Shown here piece by piece: positions 16,066 through 59,011 of a stretch of 64,000 bases of DNA. The notes under the pieces are model-generated. The model was not told the DNA's origin. It saw only the letters and a program-made list of their open reading frames with translations, and did not search any database. Positions within the stretch are counted from its first letter, which is position 1. Each line of letters starts with the position of its first letter. The translations under genes were made by a program, and so were the position numbers. The DNA comes from Bolinopsis microptera (Eukaryota > Ctenophora > Tentaculata > Lobata > Bolinopsidae). The stretch covers positions 13,171,453 through 13,235,452 of the forward strand of contig NC_087084.1 of assembly GCF_026151205.1 (NCBI RefSeq). Direction: 5' to 3'.

Positions 16066-18105
16066 TTGGCTACATGATGCGAACGACTTGTTTTAATTCT
16101 AAATGGACACCTCGAATACAAGTAGTGTTGAACTTTACTAAGTAGCATTAATAGTGGTCAGCAGTGTACGTACACAGTGCTAAAATTGTGGATTACCGTT
16201 TTAAAAGCAATCAAATATAAACTTTAATTCACGTTTTATGATAAAATATCATCTTTGGCGTTCGGGACTAAATTAATCATATACTTTTTAATTTTTTAAT
16301 TGTTTTCAAAAGATTTTTTAGTCGTATATTCTAACAAAGTAATCAGTAATGATCATAATTTTTCCTCATCTCTTTAAACAAAATACACCAGGTTATTATG
16401 TTGTAATTTATATACATGTTCTGTATATATCAAACTTAATAACGTTGTTAAATTAAGGTTATCCATATCTTTAGTTAATGCAATGGAGTCTAACAAACAT
16501 CTAAAAGGCTCGCCTTTATCAATAAAAGAGACATATAAACAGGTGATGAATCTCTGATATAGACAGGTCAGAGGGGTACGAGACACACCACACCACACTA
16601 TACCACACTATACCACATCATCGCGTCCCTCCTTTTTTTAGCAGCTCATAATGCTACTAGCTCACACAGTGAAGTTAACGTGAAGTCCTCTCTTTAAACT
16701 TTAAAATGAGACGCTTATCAATTCACTACCCTTCTTGTTGTTTCGGGGAAGTTAACGCTTAAAAAACAGATTACTTTCGAGGGCATTCCCAGAAATTTTA
16801 GAAACATCGCAGTATTAAAACAGTTAAGAAATTTACTTTTAACATTGAAAATTACTTTAAAGATTAAAATATGTATTTCAGTCGCAGACTGATGGTGTAC
16901 ATCATCGGCGAGTTTTTTGGGAACAACCAACCATTTTAGTTTAAAACGACACGTGCAAGAAAAGTGTTAGACAGCAAAGGTTAAATTTTAAATTTCTGTC
17001 TGATTGATAGAGTTTAGGTCGGTGATGTAACCCAGAAATAAGAAGAATAAGTTGGAATACCACGCATTTAGATTTAGATGCTTTTTATGGCTAAAATATG
17101 TTTTAAAGTTTTAAAACTTTACTTAAAGTAAAGTAAAGTAAAGTCATTTCTTGACACGTGAATATAATAGGTACTTTTTATTTCTCTCAAGTCAGATAAG
17201 AACTTTCGTATTAGTTTTATTAAGAATTATGTAATGTAACGTGATGGAAATATTTTAAACGGGAATATCCTGTCCAAACCCAGAATGCACTACATGAAGA
17301 ATTCGTTGTAACTTTGTTTGAAAAGCATTAATAAGAACTATACAATGTATAGCATCAAACGAGTGGGTAACATTTCCTTCAGATTCGACAAAAATTTTTG
17401 TTTGGAGCACGGTAATTTTACTGCAGTATTTTCCTTAGAACACCACAATTTAATCTTGTTTTGTACACATCTGTCGATTTATCTCCAGCATTCCTATCCA
17501 GACATGAGCCTTTTATTAACTGGCTTTTAAAGTACAATGTACCGTGTAATTTAAGATTTAACTTGAAACGTACTTGGAAAAATTGGGTTAACCAGAGTCT
17601 GTCCATCAAGACAATTGTATTAATTCTCTAAAATATGTCTCATTCTTTGGAATAATGCAACCAAACGGTCGAATTACGAGATTCAGTGGTGCCAATAAAC
17701 CAATTAAGAAGTTAAGATACAATTGAAGATAAAGTCTGCAGGGCATAAAATCAATAGCACTACCACTAAACACTGGAAAAGGTAGCAAAATTGAATATTT
17801 CCAAAGTGTTAAAACTGTGATATGTATTGAATGAAGCTTGAAAACGGAGAATCACCGCCACCAAAATTCCGATTTCCAAGAAAGCGAAGCTGACGGACTA
17901 CAAAATAATCAATACTTTTAACAACAAGTCTCCCTCAACTCTTATCTGTAGAAAGAAGTTGGTCCACAGTTGAAATCAGTCGCCTCAAGAGTATGATAAG
18001 AACAAGAGAACTAAACATGGGTTTCATTATGAAGGAGCAAATTAAGATTCAAAGCTTAAGAAGTCCACGGGAAAGGACGCGAGAAAGTTCTGCCATTTTT
18101 ACACA
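16066..18105. other. non-coding stretch, nothing recognised
   Basis: AT-rich sequence with short runs such as AAAGTAAAGTAAAGT (near 17,127) and CACACCACACCACAC (near 16,583). Open frames are short and carry no motifs. Confidence 0.45.
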
Positions 18106-18225: not shown

Positions 18226-21200
18226 GTGAAAATTAATTATTTCAAGCAGGTGTTGAGTTGAGCCTGACAAGGTACAACGAACAGCTGCAGTTAATAACGG
18301 TCCGTGTCAAACATACTCAACACATACTCAAGGGAATAACTGAATTTAAACATAAACCCTACTTGAAACAGCCAGATGGGTTGCAAGGGTTAAGTAGAAA
18401 ATATGACAATTTTATGGGATAAATATTTTTAAGATGCCGCTTAGCTTTTAAATTCGAATACAGTGCCTAAAAGTGAAGTTAAAGTTATCTAGATTCATCG
18501 GCAGTTCCTGGTGAAAGATGGGATACATGGTATTGGTACTGGATGTTCAGACCAATAGGTGGGGTACGGTTGGAACAGTTAGGCCAACTTAGGTACCAAG
18601 CACCAACAGACATGGACAATAACAATAATCAAATAATAATGAAATTTATATGTATTTACTAGAATATTTACTAGGATTCAAGCTAGTTAAACTGGCATAC
18701 TGAGGTCTAAACGCTCAACAAATATCATGAAGAAAATTACATTTGTAAACCATGAGAAATCCTGCAGAACTGCTGATGTATGTAAAATTGCACAGAATCA
18801 TACGATTAACGACACTGACTCGCGCCACCGATCTACTTTTAACCCCGTCGAAACGGAACAATATTTACAGCGGAATTCACTGTGACGCGCTGTAAAATGT
18901 AAATTGAAAACGATTCAATTTCCTCTGAGTTGAGATGACACTCATGAATTACCCATTCATATGGAGAGTGTGAACCAGTTATGAAGTCCTTCGTTTTAGC
19001 GCTTCTTTCGGCGTACAACGACACCCACAATCAAATTAGGGAGATTTGATCCCAACCGTAATCAGTAGGTTATAGCTACAATGTGAACTGAAATTAATCG
19101 GAAGGTGGGAGAGCAACTTGGAATGAACCCAGCAAATGAGACTCTGTCTCGGTTGCTGAGACTCTGTATTTAATAAATTGTTGTTTAAAGATGTGGTTTA
19201 CTTAATAGGTTGTTTAAAGATGTGGTTTATTTAATAAATTGTTTAAAGATCATAGAGTTTACTTAATAAATTGTTGTTTACTTAATAAATTTTTAGTTAG
19301 ATAGTTTACTTAATAGGTTGTTTAAAGATACAGTTTACTTAATAGGTTGATCGGTGTTGACGTAAAAACAATTTAAGGATGGGAAACCCCCGCCGAGACG
19401 TTTATAAACTTGGTAATTGAAGGTCTCTGTAACTACGATATAGTTGTGATGTAACACTATTTAACTATGTAACACTATTTAACTAAATAACACTACGTGG
19501 ACGGGATTGTTAAAATAACTTAACTATTGATTTCAATAGAAATATTCAATAAAATGAGTTATAGAAACTAATTTATAATAGAAACTAATTTCTGTATAAT
19601 AATTATTGCAATTTATATCATTGTAAGATTCATAAGATAAGGCCACTAGGGCCATGTCACGCTACCTTAACAGTAAACCAAACAAAACCCTACTCGAAGG
19701 AACGTCAAGTAATGTTGTAACATTGGTTTGTGACCTGAAATAAAATCTTAACTCACATAACAGGGAGTCGGTATTTGAGCTGTGTGGTGTCGAAAATCTG
19801 CACATGTGCCAACCCCCAACCTTTTTAGAAATGTAACACTTTCCGGACGGAAGATTGCCGCGCTCCTGACCTTCTGAGGTATTTCAGTGCACTACTAAGC
19901 ACCTCGAAACGCACACAAATGTCAACCGTCAATAGAAGCACTAAGCAGCGAGTAAAGTATGTAGATTTACAGGAACGAGAAAATAAACCAAGATGGTTCA
20001 AGTATTTATTCTTAGGATCCGCAACATTCCACACAATAAATTGTAATAAATTGTAAGTTGTAAATTCTAAAAACACGTACGCAGTTTAACTTAAAGTCTT
20101 TAACGCACTAGACTGGACTAGAAGGTTATTTCCTGGCTACTGATTGTTATTCTCTACAAGGAAGCTACCACAAGTACATTTTTTAAAACTATGACATTTT
20201 ACATAATGGAGCCTCAGAGGCGAAACACAATGCTGCTATATATTATATAACATGATAGAAAAGAAAAAAAGAGGTTTAATGTACATATTAAAACACAATT
20301 CAAATAAAACTAAGACAGTACACTCAAGTACGTGGGGAACTCTATTGACTTGATGTTGACGTCACAATTAAATCTAATTAAAGAACTGTGCAAAGTCTTC
20401 AAGAGTTTTCTTACATTTCATGATCAACATTCAACAAGGCTCGTTATCATGAGGCTCGTTATCATGAGGCTCGCTGCTCAATTTTTGGCACAATTCTTAT
20501 CATTATTTTGCACATAAATCATTTAAGCAAAATCAACATAGGATAAGTTATAATAGTAATTAGTATATTCATGGCAAACGAGCGAGATTGACGAAAATTC
20601 TGAATCATGAAATTATCTAGATTTCTGCCATTTTTATTGACAAAAAAGTAACGTTAACGGAACCATTTTTGATTGAAAATTTATGAACCCCTTATTACAG
20701 ACGATTCCCAAAAACAGTTGTGAATAAGGGAGGGGCGGTAAACCCCCGAACACTCTTAATAAAACGTAAACCGATCATTAATCTTAATAGGTTTTTGCAA
20801 AATGCAGCTTCAAAAGAAAGAAAATTTATCTTGCACCCTGCGAACGAACAGGCTGCAGCACTGACCACTGCTAGATGGAAATATCTCAATTGAACAGAGA
20901 TATCAGTTTTAAAAGATATCACACTATTGGGGTATTGGATACGTGCAAAATTCTGACGTGACTATAATAATCAATCGGGCAAGGTGTTCATTATAAAGCT
21001 TTTATGATGCTGTACCTTGCTCAAACCATCTGCATCATTAAAGTGAAATTATTATAAAGGCTTTCGCGGTCGACGGTTTTAAAGTATCACAATATTATAT
21101 TTTGAATATTGTTTGCTGTTTTTTTTTCAGATGAAATATAAATCTGGTAGCAGTAAATTGGTTCTAGAACCTCTAGATTAAATTATGGAACGGAAGCCAA

Positions 21201-36889: not shown

Positions 36890-39110
36890 CCTTTTGGGGG
36901 GTTTTTGTGTTTTTCTAAATGTGGGGTTGTAAAGGGGGGGGGCTAAGTGTGGGGTTGGTAATTTTTGGGGTTTCAAAGTGTTTTGGGGGGGTTGTTTGGG
37001 GTTGTAAAGTTTTGGGGGTTTTGGGGTAAGTGAGGGGTTGTAAGTGAGGGGTTGTAAAATGGGGGGTTTTTTAGTGAGGGGGTTTCTAAATGGGGGAATC
37101 GGGAGGTTTTTTTAGTTTTTAAGCTGTTTTAGGGGGGGAAAATCAGCAATCTTTTTTTAAAATTTTTTGGGAAAAGGTTTGGGTTTGTAGTTGTAAGTAA
37201 ATCTGGGGCCTTTTATGTTTTCTTTAAAATTTTTCAAAGCTGGGTTTATAAATTGCCCTGAAATTCAGAAACCCCTTTAAAAAATGCCCAAAATTGGGAA
37301 ACGTTTATGGAGCCCAAAAGGGGCCCTGTTAATTTTTTATAACTTTTATACATTATACCCGTTTGTATACACTGTTACTTTTTTTTTTTTTTCAAACCAC
37401 CCTTTTCAAAACTTAAAATTTGGGACGATAGGAGATGTTTTATCCACACTAAATTTTTGCATTATTTACTTTTTATTGCCGTCTTTTTATGAGTTGCGTT
37501 AAATTACAAAGGAAGGGAATAGTGCGCTGTACTCTATATACCATACGGGTACTTCTTTTTAGTGTCCCTAAAAGTGGTTCGGGGTTTGAGGTTATGTGTA
37601 TTATTAGTCACTAAATTGGAGGGCGAACAATTTTCCTGGCTCATCACTGATGATATACACACCAACAGACAACAGTTGGGGGACTTTAGTAGACAAGATG
37701 TGGCCCGTGGTAACTTGTTGGGTATTCTTTGGGAGATTTTAGGTTTTCCCCACATTAGGGAGTGTGTAAACCAAACCCATGCCCAGAAGTCCCGGGTTTA
37801 TATATATAATGATCCGTTAAATTTAAATGGAAGTAGCTTATTTCAAAAAAACAATATCTTGTAGACAACTCCACATCAATCTAGAATTAGGGATCAGCTG
37901 TGCTCGATCGGGAATTTAAAAAAAATAACTAAAATTTTTGGGATTTACCCGTAACTCAGTTTCTAATGATTTAAATTTGGGTCCCCTTTATCCATGCAGA
38001 TTTCACTATTAACAAAAAAATCTCGTTTGAAAACCTTTTTAATGGGGTAGTTTTATTGGGGTTTTAAAAAGTTTGGTGGAAATTTAAAAAAATTTGTCCT
38101 CCCGGGGCAAATATTTTACCGTAATAGCCCGCTTTTGTGGTCAAATCCCGAAAGTGTTCTGTTTTTTAAAATTTAGTTCTTGTGGGTGGCATAAAATTTT
38201 CAAACATTAAACAATCATGGGAAAGACCAAGAAGATACGTTAAAATCAATGCCATGGGAAAACTAATTTTCCTCAAAAAGGTTTGTAAATGTAGTAATTT
38301 TTCTAATTTCTGCGCAACACATTTGTGAGTTGTTTTTAATGTAATTGACTATTTTAATTTAATCATTACAGGTTTTCATGGAAGAGAAATCACAACGAAG
38401 GTTGCTTTGGGTTTAGGAGGGGGGTTGTAAATGTGGGGTTGCCCGGGGGGGGTTGTTTGTGTGGGGTTGCTAAATGTGAGGTTTTGGTAGGTTTTGGGGT
38501 TAAAAAGTGTGGGGTTGCTTAGTGTTGGGGGTTTCTAAAATGTGGGGTTGCTAAGTTTGGGGGGGTAAGTGTGGGGGTTTCTAAGTGTGGGGGTTTTCTA
38601 AATGTAGGTTGCTAAGTGTGGGGGTTTCTAAATGTGGGGTTTTCTAAGGGGTTTTGGGGTTTTCGGTGAGGGGGGTTTTAAATGTGGGGGGTTTTAAATG
38701 TTTTTGTTGGAAATGTGGGGTTGATAAGTGTGTTGTTGCTAAGTGTGGGGGTTATAAATGTGGGGTTGTAAGTGTGGGAATTTTAAAATGTTTTTGTTTT
38801 CTAAGTTGAGGTTGCTATGTGTGGGGGTTTCTAAATGTGAGGGTTTCTAAGTGTGGGGGGTTTCTTAAAAGGGGGGGTTTTCTAAGTGGGGGTTGCTAAG
38901 TGTGGGGTTTGTAAATGGAGGGTTTTAAGGTTTAGGTTGTAGGGGTGGGGTTGCTAAGTGGAGGGGTTTCTAAGTGTGGGGTTGCTTGTGTGGGGGTTTT
39001 TTAAGGGAGGTTTTTAAATGGGGGTTTCTAATTTTGGGGTTGTAATGGCAGTTGTAAGTGTGGGGTTGTAAATGTGCAGTTGCAAATGTGGGGTTGCTAA
39101 GTTTATCGTT
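36890..39110. repeat. degraded continuation of the 15-bp minisatellite
   Basis: Blocks at 36,900-37,090 and 38,415-39,110 consist of recognisable but corrupted copies (AAGTGTGGGGTTGCTAAG and many homopolymer-stretched variants). They probably belong to one large array that could not be resolved. Confidence 0.7.
37563..37864 (+). CDS. candidate terminal exon, unrecognised
   Basis: This is the one stretch of normal texture inside the abnormal tract. A pyrimidine-rich acceptor (ACTTCTTTTTAG) precedes a 100-codon open frame without any methionine, ending at TAG 37,862-37,864. The peptide (for instance VARGNLLGILWEILGFPHI and FSWLITDDIHTNRQQLGDF) looks like folded-protein sequence, but I do not recognise a family. 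The absence of a Met and the acceptor fit a last exon of a plus-strand gene whose earlier exons would lie in the unreadable part. Confidence 0.3.
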
Positions 39111-42100
39111 TAAACGGTTTTAAACGGTTTTTTGCAGGGCCGCATAAAGGTAGTAACAAATCGTGGGGTTTTGGGGCTTTCTTTGCATTATTCAGTTGTC
39201 AGAATAAAAATATTGAGATAAAAAATCTTTTAAAAACCTGGGTTTATATTAATTTTTTTTAAAGAACAATTAGTAAATTTATATAAATTTTTAAGATTGT
39301 CCCCAAAATTTTTTTACCCTTTAAAAAACAATCCCCCAGCAGATTGGGGGGACAATTTTGCAATTATTAGCTCTGAGGTAGAAATAAAGGGGTTTAAAAA
39401 GAAATAAAATTTTAAATTAATTTTCCCCCCGGGCAACCCAATAAAATGTGCTTTAATTTTTTTAACCTATTCCTTTTTTTTAATTTTTTTTTTTTTTTTT
39501 TATTTTTTTTTTTCTAAAGGTTTTAAATTTTTTAAAATTTTTTTTTTTTTTTTAATTTTTTTTTTTAATTTAAATTTACTTTGGTTTTATTTAATTTTTT
39601 TTTTAAATTTTTTTAGTTGAAAGGGATTTAAAGTTTTTGGGGGATTTTTTGTTTTTTTAATTTTTTTTGTTTTTTTTTCATTTTAATTTTTAGGGGGGAA
39701 TTTTTTTTAAAATTAATTTTTTTTAAAAAACTTTTTCAGGTTTTTTTTAATTTTTGGGTTTTTTTTTGCTTTAATTTTGGGTTCCCATTTTTTGGGAAGT
39801 GGGTTTGGCGTTGGGTTGGGGGGGGTTTTCAAGGTTTTGGTTTTTTGGGGATACATTTGGGGGGGGGGTTGGGGAGAAAGGGGGGTTGAGGTTATGTTTT
39901 TGGGGGTTTTCTTGGGGGGATGGGGGGGAAAAAGGGGGGGTTTTGGGGAATTAGGGATTTTGGAGGGGGGGTTTTGGGGTAGGGGTTATTTTTGGGTTTT
40001 TTTTAACTAGGGGGGGAAAAATGTTGGGGGGGTTTTTTACAAATTTCTTTGGGGGGGGGGGGGTTTGGGGGGTTTTGGGGGGGGGGGGGGTTGATGGGGT
40101 TTAGGTTTTTTGTGGGGGATGGGGGGGGGCCAACCCCCTTTTTTTTTTTGGGGAGGGGGTGGGGGGTGGGGGGGTTAGGGGGTTTTTATAGGATTTTTGG
40201 GGGGTTTATGGGATCTTGGGTTGTTGTTTTGGGGGTAAATTTTGCTTTTTCTTGGTGGGGGGGGGGTTTTTTGGGGCCCGGGGGTTTTTTTTAAAGGGGA
40301 ATTTTTAAAATTGGGGGGGTTAGGGTTTAGGGGGGGGGGGCCCCCCTTTTTGGGTTAGGGGTTTTGATGGGGGGGGATTTAAATTTTTTGGGAGGGGAAG
40401 GAAGGGGGGGGTGGTATTTGGGTTGGGGGGTTCTTAAAAAAAAAATTCTTTTTTCGGGGGGGGTTTTTTAATTTTATTTAAATGTGGGATCTTTTATTTT
40501 GGGGGAATTTTTGGGACTTATCAAAGAAATTTTTTGATTTTTTTTAATTTTTGGTTTTTTTTTAAGTTGTTTTTTAAGGTTTTCTTAAAGGGTTTTTTTG
40601 GTAAAGTTGTTTGTTTTTTAAAAGGGGAAAATTTTTTTTTGGGTTTTTATTTTTTTAAAAAACCCCTTAAACTTTAATAACTTTTTTTTTTTTTTTTTTT
40701 AAAAATTTTTTTTTTTTCTTTTTTTTTTAATTTTTTTTTTAACTTTTTATTTTATTATATTTTTTAATTTTTTTTTCCCTAAAAAAATTAAAATTTTTTA
40801 TTTCCGTTTTCTTTTTTTTTTTTTGGGTTTTTTATTAAAAAACGGTAATTACTTAAAAACTGGGACCTGAATCTTTAAATTGGAAAAGGGGGAACCTGGG
40901 GGAAAAAGGGTTTTTAAAGAAATTTAAAAACCAAAAAAAACAGGATGGTTTTTTTTTTTGCCAAGGAAAGGGGGTTTACCAAACCTGGGGGCTAAAGGGG
41001 TTTTTTAAAAAAGGATTCTTTAAAAAGGTGAAAATTGGGACTCCTTGTCAATGCATCAGTTTGGGGCCCATCTTCCCCGGCCCCCAAAAAATGAGGAAAT
41101 TCCCTTTTTTAAAAACTGTGGGTCCCCTTTTCATTATCTTTTTGGGTTAACTTACCTTTTGGATTGGGCCAAAACCCCCAATTCCCAGGGTTGGTCAATA
41201 TTCCAAACATTTTTTGGGGCCGGGCCTAAGGGGGAACCCCCGGTTTTTGGGCTGGTTTTTTAGGAAGTTTAAAAAGTAAACAAATAAAATTCATCGGGTT
41301 TTAAACCCCCCTCTTCGAAACCCGGTTTACCCGCCTTTAAATTGGGGGGCTAAGGGGAAAAAGGATATAAAAAACCTTCGTCCAATTCAATTTAACCCAG
41401 GCAAAAAGGGGAAAAAACACCCAAAAATAATATTTTGGCCCTAATTTAAAAAGGACACGGGAGGAAAGTACTTCCCCAAAAAGGGAAAAGGGCTTGGTTT
41501 TTTAAACCCGCTAGGGAAAAATTTTCCCTCTAATTCCCGGTTTTCCGGGGGCCCCGTTTTTTTCAAAGGCAACCAGATTTAATTTCGTTTAAAGAATTTT
41601 TGTTTTTACCCCAAAAGAAGCCGGCGCCCACCCAAAGCCCTTGGGTTTCCACCCTTTTTTAAGCAAGGAAAGGTGAAAAACCCGTTTTCCCCAAAAAAGG
41701 TTTGGGGGTAATTAAAAAAACAAAATTGGGGCCAAAGGGAAGATCAGTTTTTTATTCCCGGGGAAACCCGGGCAAACCCCCAAGGGGAATTTTCCCGCAA
41801 AAGGGGACAAGCCCCCCACTCCTGGGTATGCGGGCGGAGTTAAAAAAAATGAACCCTTAAACCCCCTTTTCGGTTAAGCCTTTAAATCTATGTTTTCCAA
41901 AACCCTGGATACAAAACCAAAAGGGAATTGGCAAAGGGAGGGGAACTTCCCAAAAGGCAGAAACTTTTCTTTTTAACTATCCCCCGGGTGTCAAACACAG
42001 AAAGGTCGTTTGGGAAATCCAAAAAAAAACCAGGAAAACCCCCCAAATTGAAAAAGGGCAAACCGTTTCAAAAAGGAGGAAAAAGAATTATCTACAGCTT

Positions 42101-50841: not shown

Positions 50842-53593
50842 TTAAAATACAAGCTCATTCTTATCAAAGTTTAATTCTGTCCATTCTAATTCTTCGTACC
50901 TTGACTGTATCTTGAGTAGCTCACTTTTCAGTGTTACTTTAACTAAGTTCGTTGACTTAGTAAAGCTTATTAAACTGTCAATTTTTCGACAGTCGTTCCA
51001 CATTTTTGTTGATTGATAAATGAAAGAGGAGGATGGGTTCGGGGTGATGAACTGGTCTGAACGTCTTTGTGATGGTGATCTGTGGAGTAAAGATAGGAGT
51101 GAGATTGGAGATTCTAATCTGACAATTTTGAACAGTTCTAATAGACATGTGTATTTGTACAGGTTGTGGACGGTATAGGTAAGAAGGCCGTTCTTGTTAA
51201 ACAACGGCTTTGTATGCTCTTTTTCAAAGAATTCTCTTCCTAGGATTTGTTCATCTATACAACGTGTTCTGGCACATGTTCTAAATTTATCTAGATATGC
51301 TTCAAGGTCACCAAATAGTATTCTGATACATTTTTTCTGAGTGATGAAGATAGGTTGAAGCATATTATTACTCGACCCACCCCATACCGATATTCCAAAT
51401 CTTAGGTGTGACTCAAATAACGTGTGGTACAATTCTTTATGGTGTTTTTTCGGGATAACGTGTCGTATTCTACTGAGTCTTCCGATCTCACACCTAAGTT
51501 TCGAGTTGAGGGCTCTTATTTGAACATCCCATTTTAGCTTTTCGTCAATAATAACACCTAAAAACTTGGTCTCTTTAACTTGCTTTATTACCGTATTATT
51601 TAGAGTTAGTATTATATATTCTGATTCGTTATCTGCCTCATTATCAGTAGCTGTACGTGACGGATTGAAGTGAATGTAGCAGCATTTCTTTATATTTATA
51701 TGTAATAGATTGCATTTCATGTACTGGTGTAACAAACGGAGAATTTCGTTTGCTCTTGCATACAGTTTTTTTCTACATTCATCTACTACGAATATGTTTG
51801 TGTCATCTGCAAATAGTATGAACTTGCCCAGATCAGTTGTTCTAAATAAGTCGTTAACATATATTATAAATAGCAAGGGTCCGAGACAAGAGCCTTGGGG
51901 AACTCCAAAGAGAACAGGCAGCTTGTCAGACTCTTCGCCCAGTACAGAGACATATTGATATCTATTAGAGAGATAACTAGCGATGAGTCTATTGGCGTTT
52001 CCACGTATTCCATAGTTGTCTAGTTTATTGAGTAGTTTTTCATGTGAGATCGTGTCAAACGCTTTAGATAGATCAATAAATATTCCAAGTACATGCAGTT
52101 TTTTGCTAAGACAGGATTCTATGTAATTCACTGAGGAGTTGAGGGCATGGCTTGTGGAGTGATTTTTTCTAAATCCGTACTGGTTCTCGTAAATCATTTT
52201 CTGGGACTGAAAGAAGCTATACAGTCTGTTGTAAATAATTTTTTCAAATATCTTACCAAAAACAGCTAAGGTTGATACTGGCCTATAGTTTTCCAGCAAT
52301 TCCTCATTATCCTTCTTATAGATCGGACTGATTCTCCCAGTCTTTAAATCATCTGGGAATACTCCATTCCTCATGCATTCACTGTATAATAAAGATAGTA
52401 TAGGACAGATCACTTTAGACGATTCTTTAACTACATGTATTGGGATGTCGGATGACTTCCCATTCTTCAGTTCAGATATAATCATTCTAACCTCGTCAGC
52501 TGTACAGTCATTAATGAAAATACTGGACGTGTTTGCTCTAGGCAGGTAGTCATAAAAACTAGGAAGATTGTTAATAGTTAGTTCTCCAATTTCATTATAT
52601 GCCCCGTTTAAATTAGACGCTAGAGAAACAAAATACTTATTAAATTCATTGGCTATTACTCTACGATTGGTTATCTTCTCATTGTTTATAGTAAACAGTG
52701 GTTTTATTTGCCGTTTCTGTTTGCCCCGTATTTGATTAATCAGTTCCCATGTCTTCTTATTATTACCGTTTGTGTCTGCAAATTTTCCCATGAAATACTT
52801 AGTTTGAACATCTTTGCGATCTTTTTTAACCATCCTTCTATAATCCTTATAAGTTTTGTATCTAGAACGTTTTTCACAACATTTCAAGCATTGACATGTT
52901 CCACCTTTATAATCAGTTTCACCGAGTTTACATTTTTTCTTTCTAACTTTAGCCCAATTGTCATAGAGTTGGTGCTGATGCTTGATTTTGGCTATAAGCC
53001 CAGGTGTGATCCATGGGTTATTTTGTGTAGTTCTTTTGGAAGACTTAGGGGTTGCCAACTTACACGTTTTATCGATACTACTTTTGAAAACATCATGAAA
53101 TACCGTGAAGTTGTCAATTACTTTATTCTCTAATTCATGTTCCAAGTCCTTTACAAAAGAGGTAACATTAGACTTACAGTAGTCGTAATATTGTTTATAT
53201 TGTAGGTTACTTTTAGTGGATCCCATACTCTTTTCAAATATTTGAAAGACTGGTGAGTGGTGGGATATACGATCAGTAAGTGTGCCTGAGGCTATTATAC
53301 TCTCTACATCGTTAGTTATAATATTGTCAATACACGATGCTTTACAACCTGGCTTCTCATGAGTTGGCAGAGATATTAGGGGAAAAAATCCTCTACTGAA
53401 CAGGACTTCCTCATAACGTTTTACAGTCGCATTATCCTTATTATGTAGATCAATGTTGAAATCACCTGCCAGGTAACTGCATTTCGGCAAATTATCGAGA
53501 ATTGCTGAGAGTTCTAATAATGCAACATTTACATCACCACTTGGAGGGCGGTACACTACACCAACAGTGACCGGACTTTTCTTGCTGCTTATT
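50842..53593 (-). pseudogene. LINE endonuclease/reverse transcriptase, C-terminal 917 codons
   Basis: Open over its whole length to the stop at 50,842. In order: late AP-endonuclease motifs (AGDFNIDL about residue 30, CIDNIIT about 75, and SHHSPVF about 98, with the D/N and the SxH residues of the active site); a linker with NPWITPGLI and a Cys-rich patch (CQCLKCC, about 221-227); and the reverse transcriptase, with YRPVSTL, FIDLSKAFD (about 493-501, first catalytic Asp), GVPQGSCLGP and FADD (about 582-585, the catalytic Asp pair). These are followed by the IDEKLKWD and ISVWGG thumb-region motifs and a C-terminal domain. Residue numbers count from the GTG at 53,556, which is only a frame marker; the real start is the ATG at 58,828. 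The domain style resembles CR1/L2-like LINEs. The gene is broken only by the Naiad insertion. Confidence 0.9.
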
Positions 53594-54377
53594 GTAATCT
53601 AAGTAAACTATAGGTAAAAATATAATATTAATCATAAGCTAAAATGTACTAATCTTTGTATTCTAAATGGGGAAAAAGAAGAAACATTGTCAGTCAGTCG
53701 AGAAAATTGTCAGTCAGGCTATATGGCAGCTTTGTAGATGTTGTGACTATGCTAGTAGTGGTCCCAGGCTTGCGACTGGAATTGCGGTGTTAAATCGATT
53801 TAATGGTACCAACGATCCACCTCCCACTTGTTGTTTGGTACTTAGCATTAATAGTGTTAGCTGTAGCCATTTATAGCAAGAATCTTAAAACTAAAGGGGA
53901 TGACAAGGAAAAGAGGAAGGAAAAAGAATAACGGGACAAACAATTAATTAAAGTATTTATAGGAGCATTAGATATTGTAATTACAAGCTTCAATAATAAA
54001 TCACTGACTAAAACTTCTAATTAAAATGACACTTGGTACGCTCGCCCATTTTCACTGGTCAGTCTGAACTTCGGTTTAGCACGTTGTACACTTATTCACC
54101 TAAGATTCAGAATTTGTTCAGTTTAGCAGAGTTAGTACCCGTGTTTCAATAAATCAAAAGATATCAGGGAGTTCTTTAATAATGTTACGGTCATCTAGAA
54201 TACCGAACTTCCTGAAAACGTTATCATATTTCCTCAGACAACGTTTAATGCCTTTAATCAGTCTATCACGGCTATATCCTCTATCAATTAGAATTTGAAT
54301 ATTTTGTGAAGATGGGAGGTAAAGATATCCAATCTAGTGCAAACATTACCATATCTAAGAACTTGACTTGAAAAAAA
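53594..54377 (-). repeat. 3' pseudo-LTR of the Naiad element
   Basis: Matches 57,424-58,206 throughout, apart from a T missing near 54,294 and extra A residues in a run at 54,371-54,377. Contains the end of the reverse transcriptase frame (stop at 54,154-54,156) and a 560-bp 3' UTR. A 69-codon plus-strand frame inside (53,667-53,876) is antisense to the element and is not called a gene. Confidence 0.95.
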
Positions 54378-55812
54378 CGTTGTAGCCAACCTCGGTTGGG
54401 ATGTTACTGTGAGGAAATGTAAGGGATACAACATGAAAATTAAAATCATCAGTTTTGTTATACACTGATATTTCTAGTCCTTCTGTGGAAATATTAATAT
54501 TTAAATCAAGGTAGTTAATGATTTTATTATTGGAACCAGCTCGCTCCATCTCCAATGAATTAGGATAAATATCTTTAATCAATTTATGAAAGTAAAGGTA
54601 GTTAATAATAGATAAATCGTCAACATATCGTTTATTATTGGATAATATCTTTGCTAATCCCATTTTCTTTTCCTGAAGTAAACGTTTCATATAATTAAAT
54701 TCCTTTTTGCCAACAGTGAGATCAGCTATAGGGGAACTTGAATTTCCACCCATAGGAATACCCTTGGTTTGTATGAATACAATCCCACCGAAGACGACAT
54801 AAGTGTTATAAATAATAAATTTAACAGCCCTCTTTTAGGTCATCTTGACTAAAGCAGGCATGACAATCATAGGTTTTATTGGAAAAGAAACATGTATTAC
54901 TGTCTCTTTTAGAAATACAAATATATCTATTACGGTCTGAAAATATTAAATCAACAACTTCATTAATCATATTCTCTACTTCAATCAAGTCTAATCTGGT
55001 ATAAAAGAGTAGTAAAATCATATACTTGTATATTATAAACATCGCTATTTTTGATAGCTTCAAGGAATTCACTTGAGGAATCTATGCTCCAAAACATGTT
55101 TATACCGCTGTTGTTGTAGATTGCCTCGCAGTATTTCTTGAAGTATTTCCTCAAAAGTTTCAGACAACAGTTAACTTGGACGTTAAGTTGTTTCGTAACG
55201 CAAAAACGGGCACCTGCAATGAACCTCGCCTTGTAAGGGTTCTTATGAAGCTTAGGGTTCCAGAAGATGCGTGCTAGTCGCAAGTTTTTATCTTCAACTT
55301 GTACATTAAATCTCTCCTTTAGACTCTCAGATATTTTATTGACATAATGAGTCTCGTCTTCGCTACAGGGTTTATATGTATCATTACCTATACATTCTAG
55401 AGTATTAGGATCAAAACCCATTTCATTGACAAGAGTTTTTACATAAAACTTTTTACAAATAAATGAAAAATTACCAGAAGCTTTGTCGATACTACAAATA
55501 ATGTATTTACTTTTCAGCAATTTAAGACTTCTTTTAACATCATCTTTTTCCAGTGTGTTTTCTTTTATTTCAAATGTTTCAGGAAAGTTTTTCTTGTAAT
55601 ATTCAATACGATTGGAAACTATTGATAACACTTTTTCCTTCCAATCGCTGAACTTTACTTCTTTTTGACAGTACTTTCTACTTTTTGATTTTATAAATTT
55701 ATCGACAGCTTCGGTAACTGACATATATATCTCATCTGGAGATTTAAATGTGGGAATTCTGTATTTACAACCGTAGGAAAAGTACTTCCCTAAGTTCAAC
55801 ATTATCAACAAT
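54154..55812 (-). pseudogene. Naiad reverse transcriptase, disrupted by small indels
   Basis: Reads from the linker through the fingers (SIDKASGNFSFICKKFYV, then RIFWNPKLHKNPYKARFI), motif A (VYDFTTLYT), motif B (QTKGIPMGGNSSSPIADL) and motif C (YVDD) to the thumb, ending KELPDIF. All three catalytic aspartates are visible. Telomerase-related Penelope RTs have this layout. The frame is shifted at about 55,780, 55,015, 54,835, 54,374 and 54,294, each time in a run of three to seven A or T. The four shifts that close a frame do so at TAA, TGA, TAA and TAG. In the truncated upstream copy the last part of the same frame is intact. The first three shifts each look like a single extra base. Confidence 0.9.
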
Positions 55813-56940
55813 ATCTAAATTACCAGTAACTACATGTCCATGAGGAGGATAATTGAAAGGGGAGGAGTGACAATCGCATGGACTACCTAAAATAGATTTA
55901 ATATCAGAAATAGAAAGTTTCTTTAAGAATGAAGCATAGTTACAAATAGAAAGACTTATAGGATCATTATACTCATAATAAATCTGTAATGGTGTAAAAG
56001 ACTGAATCAAAATGGGAAGCAAATCAATGACTGAAGTGTCAGAGAAAATAGATTTTAGGTTAAGATTATCAATGAATTTGCAATTAAATGGAACAATTAT
56101 AAATTCTCTATTACTGGATTCAGATTTGTTCTGATGGTATTTGGGGGAAAATGTTGAACAGAAAGAGGAACATACGTTGTAAATCAATCCTGAATTATTT
56201 TGACTCAAAGAGTAGAGAGTGTCTAAATCTGATAAGCTATAACATTTTAATGTTTTGTATATGGAATGTTCTGAAGAGATGTTATCTTTCAGCCTGTTAA
56301 TATCAGACTCTATGGTATCCAGAGACTTCTTAGGCTGAACTTTCTTCTTTCCATTCCCTCTGCCACGTTTGTATCGAGCAATCTGTCCACTAAAATAATT
56401 CATAACCCGATCTTGGGAGATGTTGCCCGTTCCTTTCTTCTTGTCATTAAGACCAAGAGGGAATGCTGTCCCAAGCTTCTCTATCCAGTAATCCTCCAGG
56501 AGAAGTAAATCATTTTTGACATCAGTGGACATGTCAGAATCAACATAATCTACAATCTGTATGGAAGCATCTGAGAAGACGTGACCAGGAATATTAAAAT
56601 GTTCATATAAAAATGTGGATGATTTGGCTTTGACACAATTTCTGTGGCCATTGACTCTTTTATGAAGTGGTTGAGTTGTTTCTCCAACATATTGTTTTTT
56701 ACAGGTGGAACAGGTAATAACATAAATAACATTATTAGTTTTACAATTAAGTATAAAATTTGTATGTCCAAAGATAAAATCATTATTAAAAGTACTGCTC
56801 CTAAATGTATTAACAGGATTAAAACTGTTGCAAGTGAGACAACCTCTACCATTGCAACATCTAAAAGTGCTAGAAAAGACATTACTAGGGGTTACCCATT
56901 TATTCAAGGATTTTGAGAAAAATTTACCATTACGTTTAAG
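55765..56940 (-). CDS. Naiad GIY-YIG endonuclease domain and CxC linker
   Basis: Open from a TGA at about 56,940 (no in-frame ATG upstream; the first recognisable residues are NGKFFSKSLNKWVTP) to TAA at 55,765. Counting from 56,907: a Cys cluster CCNGRGCLTC (17-26); the GIY-like VIYVITC and YIG-like QYVGET (60-76) with an intervening CxxC (66-69); catalytic-type Arg in LHKRVNGHR (81-89); His residues of the CCHH motif; and the LEDYWIEKLGTAFPLGLN segment, with the metal-binding Glu, at 137-154. A long linker follows, then CDC in SPCDCHSSPF at about 345, the CxC hallmark, and GHVVTGNLDI. The nuclease nicks target DNA for target-primed reverse transcription. In canonical Penelope elements this domain is C-terminal; here it is N-terminal. 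The frame closes just after the linker because of a one-base shift. Confidence 0.9.
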   Translation of the reverse strand, partial: LKRNGKFFSKSLNKWVTPSNVFSSTFRCCNGRGCLTCNSFNPVNTFRSSTFNNDFIFGHTNFILNCKTNNVIYVITCSTCKKQYVGETTQPLHKRVNGHRNCVKAKSSTFLYEHFNIPGHVFSDASIQIVDYVDSDMSTDVKNDLLLLEDYWIEKLGTAFPLGLNDKKKGTGNISQDRVMNYFSGQIARYKRGRGNGKKKVQPKKSLDTIESDINRLKDNISSEHSIYKTLKCYSLSDLDTLYSLSQNNSGLIYNVCSSFCSTFSPKYHQNKSESSNREFIIVPFNCKFIDNLNLKSIFSDTSVIDLLPILIQSFTPLQIYYEYNDPISLSICNYASFLKKLSISDIKSILGSPCDCHSSPFNYPPHGHVVTGNLDIVDNVELREVLFLRL

Positions 56941-57423
56941 TCAAGAAGGTAACATCATCCCTTTCGGCGTTTCCGCCTAGACCCAACGACTCGAGATAGG
57001 CCAAGGACAACGGGTCGGACATCAACCTATTGTCATGGGGCTGCCATGATTGGGCGGGCGTTAGATGTCATGAACCTAAATAGTTCTCCCACCGACGCAG
57101 TGTAGCCTGGCGAGATTCTTCGCGACCATAAAAATCTCTTAGAACCGGATCTTGCACTGCCGCTGTTTCTCGTACCGTAGCATGGCGGACAGCTCACGTC
57201 AGAAATGAAATAAACAGGTAAATACAGGATAAATCAGGAGATGTATGTACAACAACAAGACTTCAAGGAGGGCGCCCAAGAAAACAAAGATCAACCAAAT
57301 CTCGGAACCAATGGCCGGGAGAGATATAAATGTAATTATAGAGCAATATCAAGAAAAGCTATCAATTATGTATCCAACGGGGCGGAAGAACCGACCACCA
57401 GTACTTGATACCATGATACGGAC

Positions 57424-58206
57424 GTAATCTAAGTAAACTATAGGTAAAAATATAATATTAATCATAAGCTAAAATGTACTAATCTTTGTATTCTAAATGG
57501 GGAAAAAGAAGAAACATTGTCAGTCAGTCGAGAAAATTGTCAGTCAGGCTATATGGCAGCTTTGTAGATGTTGTGACTATGCTAGTAGTGGTCCCAGGCT
57601 TGCGACTGGAATTGCGGTGTTAAATCGATTTAATGGTACCAACGATCCACCTCCCACTTGTTGTTTGGTACTTAGCATTAATAGTGTTAGCTGTAGCCAT
57701 TTATAGCAAGAATCTTAAAACTAAAGGGGATGACAAGGAAAAGAGGAAGGAAAAAGAATAACGGGACAAACAATTAATTAAAGTATTTATAGGAGCATTA
57801 GATATTGTAATTACAAGCTTCAATAATAAATCACTGACTAAAACTTCTAATTAAAATGACACTTGGTACGCTCGCCCATTTTCACTGGTCAGTCTGAACT
57901 TCGGTTTAGCACGTTGTACACTTATTCACCTAAGATTCAGAATTTGTTCAGTTTAGCAGAGTTAGTACCCGTGTTTCAATAAATCAAAAGATATCAGGGA
58001 GTTCTTTAATAATGTTACGGTCATCTAGAATACCGAACTTCCTGAAAACGTTATCATATTTCCTCAGACAACGTTTAATGCCTTTAATCAGTCTATCACG
58101 GCTATATCCTCTATCAATTAGAATTTTGAATATTTTGTGAAGATGGGAGGTAAAGATATCCAATCTAGTGCAAACATTACCATATCTAAGAACTTGACTT
58201 GAAAAA
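57424..58206 (-). repeat. 5' pseudo-LTR: truncated upstream Naiad copy
   Basis: Begins inside the reverse transcriptase thumb (minus strand: SQVLRYGNVCTRLDIFTSHL) and runs uninterrupted to the stop at 57,984-57,986, then through the 3' UTR. Its right end at 58,202-58,206 abuts LINE coding sequence in a T run (minus strand), so the precise junction and any target duplication cannot be fixed. Confidence 0.95.
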
Positions 58207-58828
58207 CAAATAGAGTTTCTAGGTTTTCAGATATATGGGACAAATTGCCATTTACTGTAGCACTGAGGGTATCACATACATAAAGAGCGACTCCAGTGCC
58301 TTTTCTTTTATCTTGCAAAGTGTTTTGGTAGAAACTATTGTATCCAGTCAGTTGGTAAAGGTCACTTAATTCGGGGCCTTCATTTGTTTCTGCTAAAGCA
58401 ATGATCGAAAATTTCATATATCTCTGTAGTTCTATTGCCAGAGTATCAAAGTTAGATTTATTACCATCGATATTTTGAAATAATAATGATGAGTACTCGT
58501 TCATTTGGTTGCAAAATGTTTTATTAAATTCTTTAACACTATATGGGTTACAGTTATTGAGTAATCGGTTGATGTTTACAAGTGTTTCATCAATGTCAGT
58601 ACTATTATTTTCAGAGTCAGTATCTTCATATATAAACGGATTGTAACGAGTACTTGCTAAGTGTACACAGTTAGGGCAGTAAAAATCTTCATATATTTTG
58701 TTTGTACTGGATTTAGTATAGCATTTATGGTGCATAGCACAGTCACACCTACAACATTCAGCAATGAATTGGCCAATGGAAATGAATTTTGTACAGACAG
58801 GGCATACCTCTTTGGTCAATTTATTCAT
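58207..58828 (-). pseudogene. LINE N-terminal part: PHD finger and start of AP endonuclease
   Basis: ATG at 58,828. Residues 9-50 form a C4HC3 PHD-type zinc finger: CPVC, CCRC, HHKC, CPNC with usual spacings. After an acidic stretch (DTDSENNSTDIDETL) the endonuclease begins: LLFQNIDGNKSNFDTL (the N-motif block) and ALAETNEGPELSDL (the catalytic Glu in AETN), then KRKGTGVALYV. The frame runs into the Naiad terminal sequence and ends in it at 58,118. PHD fingers are known in CR1-type ORF1 proteins; here the finger is fused to the polymerase ORF. Confidence 0.85.
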
Positions 58829-59011
58829 GGGTACGGTACGTAACCTTCCCCATGTTGAGTCGCAGCAGCAGCAGGAGAGGAACCACCCATCGTCTGGGAG
58901 TATAAGCGATTGTCAACTTTATCCGATCTCTTCTTCCTTCTATCAGTCCCTCCATTCATCCCAATACAAAGTATTGTATTACGTATAAGAACCCCCAGTT
59001 TTGCTGTACCA
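58829..59011. other. junction between two LINE copies
   Basis: A short stretch between the minus-strand LINE start and the plus-strand truncated LINE, including a CAG-rich run at about 58,862-58,872. It probably contains the LINE 5' leader. No promoter motif is identified. Confidence 0.4.

Follow-up and report, generated by a model that had tools for sequence, protein, structure and literature searches.

The 64,000-nucleotide (nt) stretch of Bolinopsis microptera DNA analysed here (contig NC_087084.1, positions 13,171,453 to 13,235,452; hereafter the window) contains a minus-strand insertion of 4.6 kb. Our reading, to which we assign a probability of roughly 0.76, is that this insertion is a young Naiad retrotransposon, a Penelope-like element (PLE) with a 5'-truncated second lap, and that each of its two pseudo-long terminal repeats (pseudo-LTRs) carries a type-P5 twister-like self-cleaving ribozyme. 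Self-cleavage is predicted here from the sequence of the motif. The features of the element, including the parts of its open reading frame (ORF) that encode the reverse transcriptase (RT), are as follows.

53594..58206, minus strand: whole Naiad-type Penelope-like element of about 1.2 unit lengths, inserted in a long interspersed nuclear element (LINE); from the repeat ends and the uninterrupted LINE copies L071-L073, true ends within a few bases
57424..58206, minus strand: upstream pseudo-LTR, a 5'-truncated second lap with the ORF C-terminus and the 3' untranslated region (UTR); direct repeat
53594..54375, minus strand: downstream pseudo-LTR; direct repeat, with the 3' end common to 20 copies with fetched flanks
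57587..57658, minus strand: putative type-P5 twister-like ribozyme of the upstream pseudo-LTR, same letters as the downstream one; Rfam RF02684 28.8 bits, descriptor 51.8
53757..53828, minus strand: putative type-P5 twister-like ribozyme of the downstream pseudo-LTR, UAA at 53792-53790; Rfam RF02684 28.8 bits, descriptor 51.8
55765..56940, minus strand: open frame with GIY-YIG nuclease, linker and RT start; ORF and Pfam
56593..56733, minus strand: GIY-YIG domain; Pfam PF01541, residues 70-116
55870..55878, minus strand: CxC motif (CDC); from sequence, both Cys invariant in 6/6 aligned families
54981..55814, minus strand: middle part of the RT in a shifted frame; ORF, intact in copy L001
54355..54834, minus strand: RT part with GIPMGGN and YVDD in a shifted frame; ORF

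The interval from 53594 to 58206 had been marked by a sequence-only reading as a permuted, Naiad-type element with an N-terminal nuclease. It is bounded exactly by the direct repeat (53594-54375 and 57424-58206), and that reading had mentioned neither pseudo-LTRs nor a ribozyme. The two pseudo-LTRs agree at all 782 of the 782 bases aligned and differ by a single 1-base indel, and the C-terminus of the ORF falls within them. When the genome was searched with the 3' region of the element's family (F1), the best 40 of 466 candidates were all at least 99% identical, in a list that favours the closest copies and may count both pseudo-LTRs of one element. Because the pseudo-LTRs are identical and these 3'-region matches so close, F1 is a young family. 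Its 3' end was common to all 20 fetched flanks, which were picked from the 40 best matches. Full tandem arrays were also found, with a period of 3829 in L003 and of 3350 in L043, a locus of family F8.

The frame running from 56940 to 55765 holds, in the minus-strand order that had been claimed, the nuclease motifs VIYVITC...QYVGET and WIEKLGTAFPLGLN, the SPCDC linker and the start of the RT. The rest of the RT, with DFTT, GIPMGGN and YVDD, was located in the frames 55814-54981 and 54834-54355. The motif DFTTLYT, which the sequence-only reading had given as a whole, is present but split by a frameshift in the window copy. This copy is frameshifted relative to other copies and hence not intact, while an uninterrupted frame of 924 amino acids was found in 15 of the 109 genome matches listed. 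In the intact copies the nuclease and the RT lie in one frame; therefore, the nuclease is not a separate, unrelated insertion; such an insertion is what the earlier reading had named as fatal to its claim. Selenocysteine was considered and rejected, for no in-frame stop interrupts the intact copies.

The GIY-YIG domain was recognized by Pfam with an E value of 2.5e-06 (28.1 bits, cut-off 22.6). Two cysteines of the CxC motif between nuclease and RT (C355 and C357) are invariant in six of six families, as are C29, C34, C37, H99 and H114 of the nuclease, which resemble zinc ligands and which we read as the likely CCHH residues. A Foldseek search of the PDB with the predicted F1 protein gave only telomerase RTs among its 12 best matches, and for 10 the E value was ≤0.001. 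The best of these had an E value of 3.4e-06; TM-scores were low (at most 0.34), and the model was of modest quality, with a predicted local distance difference test score of 64.5. No PDB match was found by sequence search with the F1 ORF, and a profile of the six families yielded a single weak match, a maturase, at E 1.5. Scans against Pfam and NCBIfam returned, besides GIY-YIG, just weak matches to RVT_1 or group II RT and others due to chance.

Naiads reportedly combine an N-terminal GIY-YIG nuclease, a CxC linker, CCHH ligands, a telomerase-like RT with an insertion-in-fingers domain, pseudo-LTRs, tandem copies and a bias towards insertion in microsatellites. Nuclease ligands of the CCHH type are not known from Chlamys. 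To our knowledge, Naiads are described as lacking hammerheads, and no Rfam hammerhead match was found at E ≤10 in the window element or in L001-L010, L035, L043, L046 and L017. Since the N-terminal GIY-YIG nuclease, the CxC linker, the telomerase-like RT and the pseudo-LTRs all agree with Naiads, the sequence evidence supports assigning the element to this clade, as the sequence-only reading had proposed. Its suggestion of at least one young Naiad family was an understatement, as at least six families of Naiads were found in this genome. The ORFs of these six (F1, F2, F3, F4, F6 and F8; numbers 5 and 7 turned out to be F2 and F6) can be aligned over their whole length, with the F3 row cut short. 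Protein identity to F1 is 46% for F2, 25% for F3, 28% for F4, 27% for F6 and 28% for F8. A genome search with the F3 ORF, in which 54 of 1126 candidates were scored, reached F4, F6 and F8. All genome copy counts are lower bounds.

The putative ribozyme was recognized in both pseudo-LTRs of the window element by the Rfam model of twister type P5 (RF02684); the match of the downstream copy had an E value of 0.00068 when 807 nt were searched and of 0.0044 in 5.2 kb. Both pseudo-LTRs of F3 match the same model, with 30.1 bits. Read by hand, the motif consists of P5, P2, L1 with GA, P1, UAA, P2', P4 with an 8-nt L4, and the pseudoknots T1 and T2. The same plan was found by hand in F4, F6 and F8, where it lies in the 3' UTR or the pseudo-LTRs. 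We regard the presence of the motif as firm in F1 and F3, good in F6 and F8, and provisional in F4, while it is lacking in F2.

A shorter repeat, F3s, carries the motif as well. One copy lies in the window:

17209..17334, plus strand: copy of the short high-copy repeat F3s, with a putative ribozyme at 17225-17300; derived from the 3' end of the Naiad family F3b

F3s is about 150 nt long, and two genome searches gave 845 and 865 first-look candidates, with 40 scored in each. It is made of a head of about 20 nt and the last approximately 131 nt of an F3-related pseudo-LTR, with the same 3' terminus and with the ribozyme included, and it was single (monomeric) in 12 of 12 fetched copies. As F3s keeps little beyond its ribozyme and 3' end, these two are probably what the RT needs in cis.

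A script describing the P5-twister plan was run on 463 kb, comprising both strands of the window and of loci L001-L049. It returned 53 matches scoring at least 38; 48 of them scored at least 44, and all of these 48 lie in Naiad 3' regions or in F3s. Scores below 38 were obtained for the F3s copies of L016 and L026, and L033 has the motif region only in part. The motifs had already been seen when the descriptor and the threshold were fixed, and L001-L049 were chosen for holding Naiads or F3s. The weight therefore falls on the random control: no match of 44 or more was found in 23.7 Mb of first-order Markov (Markov-1) random sequence. This result bears on the possibility of a chance match that spread as one lineage was copied. 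Copies within a family are nearly identical and hence not independent, as this explanation would have it, yet the motif occurs in several families whose ORFs are only 25-28% identical to F1 and whose helix letters differ. We consider a chance origin very improbable.

Next, pairing was examined in alignments. In the F3 group, 17 related and nearly gapless rows, 94.1% of cells pair. Five pairs changed on both sides, a number reached by 3 of 500 shuffles, and the covariation score was reached by none of the 500; CpG decay could account for part of the P2 changes. The cross-family alignment (A6) has eight rows with shortened P1 loops, and 85.0% of its cells pair, compared with 62.1% in shuffles. 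In A6, 13 of 20 pairs changed on both sides (0/500 shuffles), P4 pairs in all cells, and the pairs of the T1 pseudoknot covary in three of three cases. In a blind test, model R2, for which F1, the F3 group and F8 had been used but not F6, found F6 in three F6 loci, which are near-identical copies, with an E value of 8.2e-06, and found nothing else.

Several results weigh against a twister ribozyme in these elements. The motif shares with RF02684 the order P5-P2-L1-P1-UAA-P2-P4, the T1 pseudoknot, a candidate T2 and, in most families, the GA of L1 and the AA of L4; however, P1 is short or unusual, F4 departs from the conserved twister positions, and the scores of 28.8 (F1) and 30.1 (F3) bits fall below the curated cut-off of 37.6. 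In a search of 67 kb, E values were 0.026 for F3 and 0.056 for F1. No Rfam twister match at E ≤10 was found in L035 (F6), L043 (F8), L046 (F4) or L017 (F3s). F8 gave no twister match when searched alone, and F6 gave only Twister-P3 (15.2 bits, E 1.3). F2, the sister of F1, showed no twister by any method tried, including Rfam, the descriptor and R2. Model R2 missed F4 also when run without filters, and a model from the F3 group alone (R3) found no other family. The alignment A6 was fitted by hand, and its T2 pairs in 68.8% of cells, with no two-sided change and with the F3 and F4 rows one column off; in the descriptor matches T2 pairs every time by construction. A genome-wide RF02684 search, in which 80 of 5890 candidates were scored, gave no match at E ≤0.001 and recovered 0 of 14 controls, making it uninformative on absence.

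These results could be explained if the element were an ordinary Naiad and the motif a conserved, non-cleaving RNA or DNA structure of the 3' UTR that is recognized by the RT or the nuclease. The low or missing Rfam scores and the departures in F4 would fit such a structure, and so would the presence of the motif in F3s, which has the 3' end of the element. However, the match spans the twister helices, a pseudoknot and the UAA site, and T1 covaries, none of which a mere hairpin would need. A recognition structure that does not cleave thus seems unlikely to us, and a self-cleaving, twister-like ribozyme is the preferred reading.

The 8-mers that directly follow L1 are fully self-complementary in F1, F3s, F4, F6, F8 and one F3b copy, but not in F3 or a further F3b copy (three of four pairs). 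A dimeric twister formed through a self-complementary P1 is not claimed, for the chance figure was calculated when the 8-mers had already been chosen, and the minimum-energy fold of F1 also allows a conventional P1 in cis.

Herein, we describe how the ribozyme could act in the formation of pseudo-LTRs. Tandem transcripts would be cut at the UAA of the internal loop, giving unit-length RNA of about 3.83 kb. The GIY-YIG nuclease would nick the target, and the fixed 3' end, which lies about 160 nt past the ribozyme, would be where the RT begins. Were this RNA circular or concatemeric, copying beyond one lap would produce both the partial tandem with pseudo-LTRs and the full arrays. Alternatively, tandems may arise from read-through of adjacent genomic copies or from template jumping, with the ribozyme doing another job, e.g., freeing the 5' end for translation. 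Partial tandems are described for Penelopes of a rotifer in PMC3846280. According to PMC11167929, the RT of a Poseidon element starts internally, and hammerhead mutants of Anolis Poseidon left RNA insertion unaffected, which calls for caution with the processing model. The precise periods (3829 and 3350) and the single 3' end fit repeated copying of a unit, yet both models allow them. We hold read-through or jumping, with another job for the ribozyme, to be a serious possibility, at somewhat less than even odds.

Canonical PLEs carry minimal type I hammerheads in their pseudo-LTRs, a finding of Cervera and de la Pena 2014 cited in PMC7761336 and PMC7229834. The window element resembles them in having a putative self-cleaving ribozyme motif in tandem pseudo-LTRs, but its nuclease is N-terminal and its ribozyme twister-like rather than a hammerhead. 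With the Naiad clade it shares the N-terminal GIY-YIG nuclease, the CxC linker, the Cys/His ligands, the telomerase-like RT, the pseudo-LTRs, the tandem copies and the lack of a hammerhead match; it differs in the putative twister-like ribozyme of its pseudo-LTRs and perhaps in its insertion preference, with no clear microsatellite bias among 20 F1 insertions. PMC7761336 mentions, as work in preparation, truncated twisters that lie 5' in RTE retrotransposons; these too are twister motifs of a retrotransposon, while RTE is another class of element, with the ribozyme at its 5' end. Our literature search, with sparse coverage of subscription papers and preprints and with sources seen in part, turned up nothing that connects twister with Naiads or PLEs.

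F3s looks like a twister counterpart of the hammerhead retrozymes. According to PMC7229834, metazoan retrozymes are repeats of approximately 170-400 nt with hammerheads, occur in tandem and are proposed to be mobilized by PLEs. Both they and F3s are small, non-autonomous ribozyme repeats, whereas F3s has only about 150 nt and is twister-like and monomeric. Elsewhere in the window (18635-18733, plus strand), a match to model R3 with 24.7 bits and an E value of 0.00014 is possibly a decayed relative of F3s.

Among 34 pattern matches in a collection of genome contigs, three encode Naiad-like proteins; these contigs are filed under prokaryotic assemblies, and the proteins show 43, 36 and 28% identity in their best segments. 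The 264 pattern matches in viral contigs included no relative, and phages gave none. No motif was found in the three contigs by model R1, Rfam or the script, a further point against the ribozyme reading, although in L074 just 378 nt follow the ORF. In L075 (1-2637, plus strand), filed as a gammaproteobacterium, the Naiad-like RT continues without a stop into about 390 amino acids unmatched by the query. A midpoint-rooted tree of nine rows, some with long branches, has two clades: F1 and F2 group with two of the contigs, and F3, F4, F6 and F8 with the remaining one. The motif is therefore found in both branches, though not in all members. It may either be old and often lost or replaced, or have been exchanged.

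By eye, the ribozyme cores of F1 and F8 are more alike than their proteins suggest. In the 3' UTR of F2 (L004, 2120-2460), two long crossing helices were seen by eye, GGGGGU with ACCCCC and CUUGGCACA with UGUGCCAAG, which could form a pseudoknot. A hammerhead in F2 was rejected: the one match to a loose regular expression has a stem II that does not form by eye, and Rfam gave no match. The ribozyme may be an exchangeable cassette, in view of its presence in both branches, the unusual similarity between the cores of F1 and F8, and its lack in F2, which has a different possible pseudoknot. In this wider proposal, which we judge evenly balanced, twister would serve Naiads as hammerhead serves canonical Penelopes, and F3s would be twister retrozymes mobilized in trans with little beyond the ribozyme and the 3' end. 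The purpose of the hammerhead motifs of canonical Penelopes is unsettled. If another class of ribozyme occupies a comparable place in Naiads, what these telomerase-related elements need would seem to be self-cleavage itself rather than the hammerhead. The shared motif hints at how Naiads trim their RNA, and it offers a simple test system for the origin of pseudo-LTRs and tandem arrays; F3s suggests a route by which tiny ribozyme repeats could spread in animals.

The element interrupts a LINE, which is continuous at the insertion point in the three other copies fetched (L071-L073):

50842..53598, minus strand: host LINE, downstream part (RVT_1); Pfam E 1.3e-37
58118..58912, minus strand: host LINE, upstream part; its frame extends slightly into the pseudo-LTR

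No target-site duplication was seen at the insertion into the LINE. In a rotifer, according to PMC3846280, a Penelope partial tandem lies within a non-LTR element without a duplication. The interrupted LINE (window 50842-58912, minus strand) is young as well: 21 of 40 scored matches of a 300-nt stretch, its own copy included, are 100% identical (rounded) over 298-300 nt. By eye, the 3' flanks of F1 contain no clear microsatellite in the 20 fetched, with one short ATTT run in L065, and one copy of F4, in L009, has a (GA)n run at its end. Farther off in the window, positions 38001-40000 have a GC skew of 0.58 and an AT skew of -0.28, both very strong, with homopolymer-rich sequence nearby; this part is possibly odd or poorly assembled.

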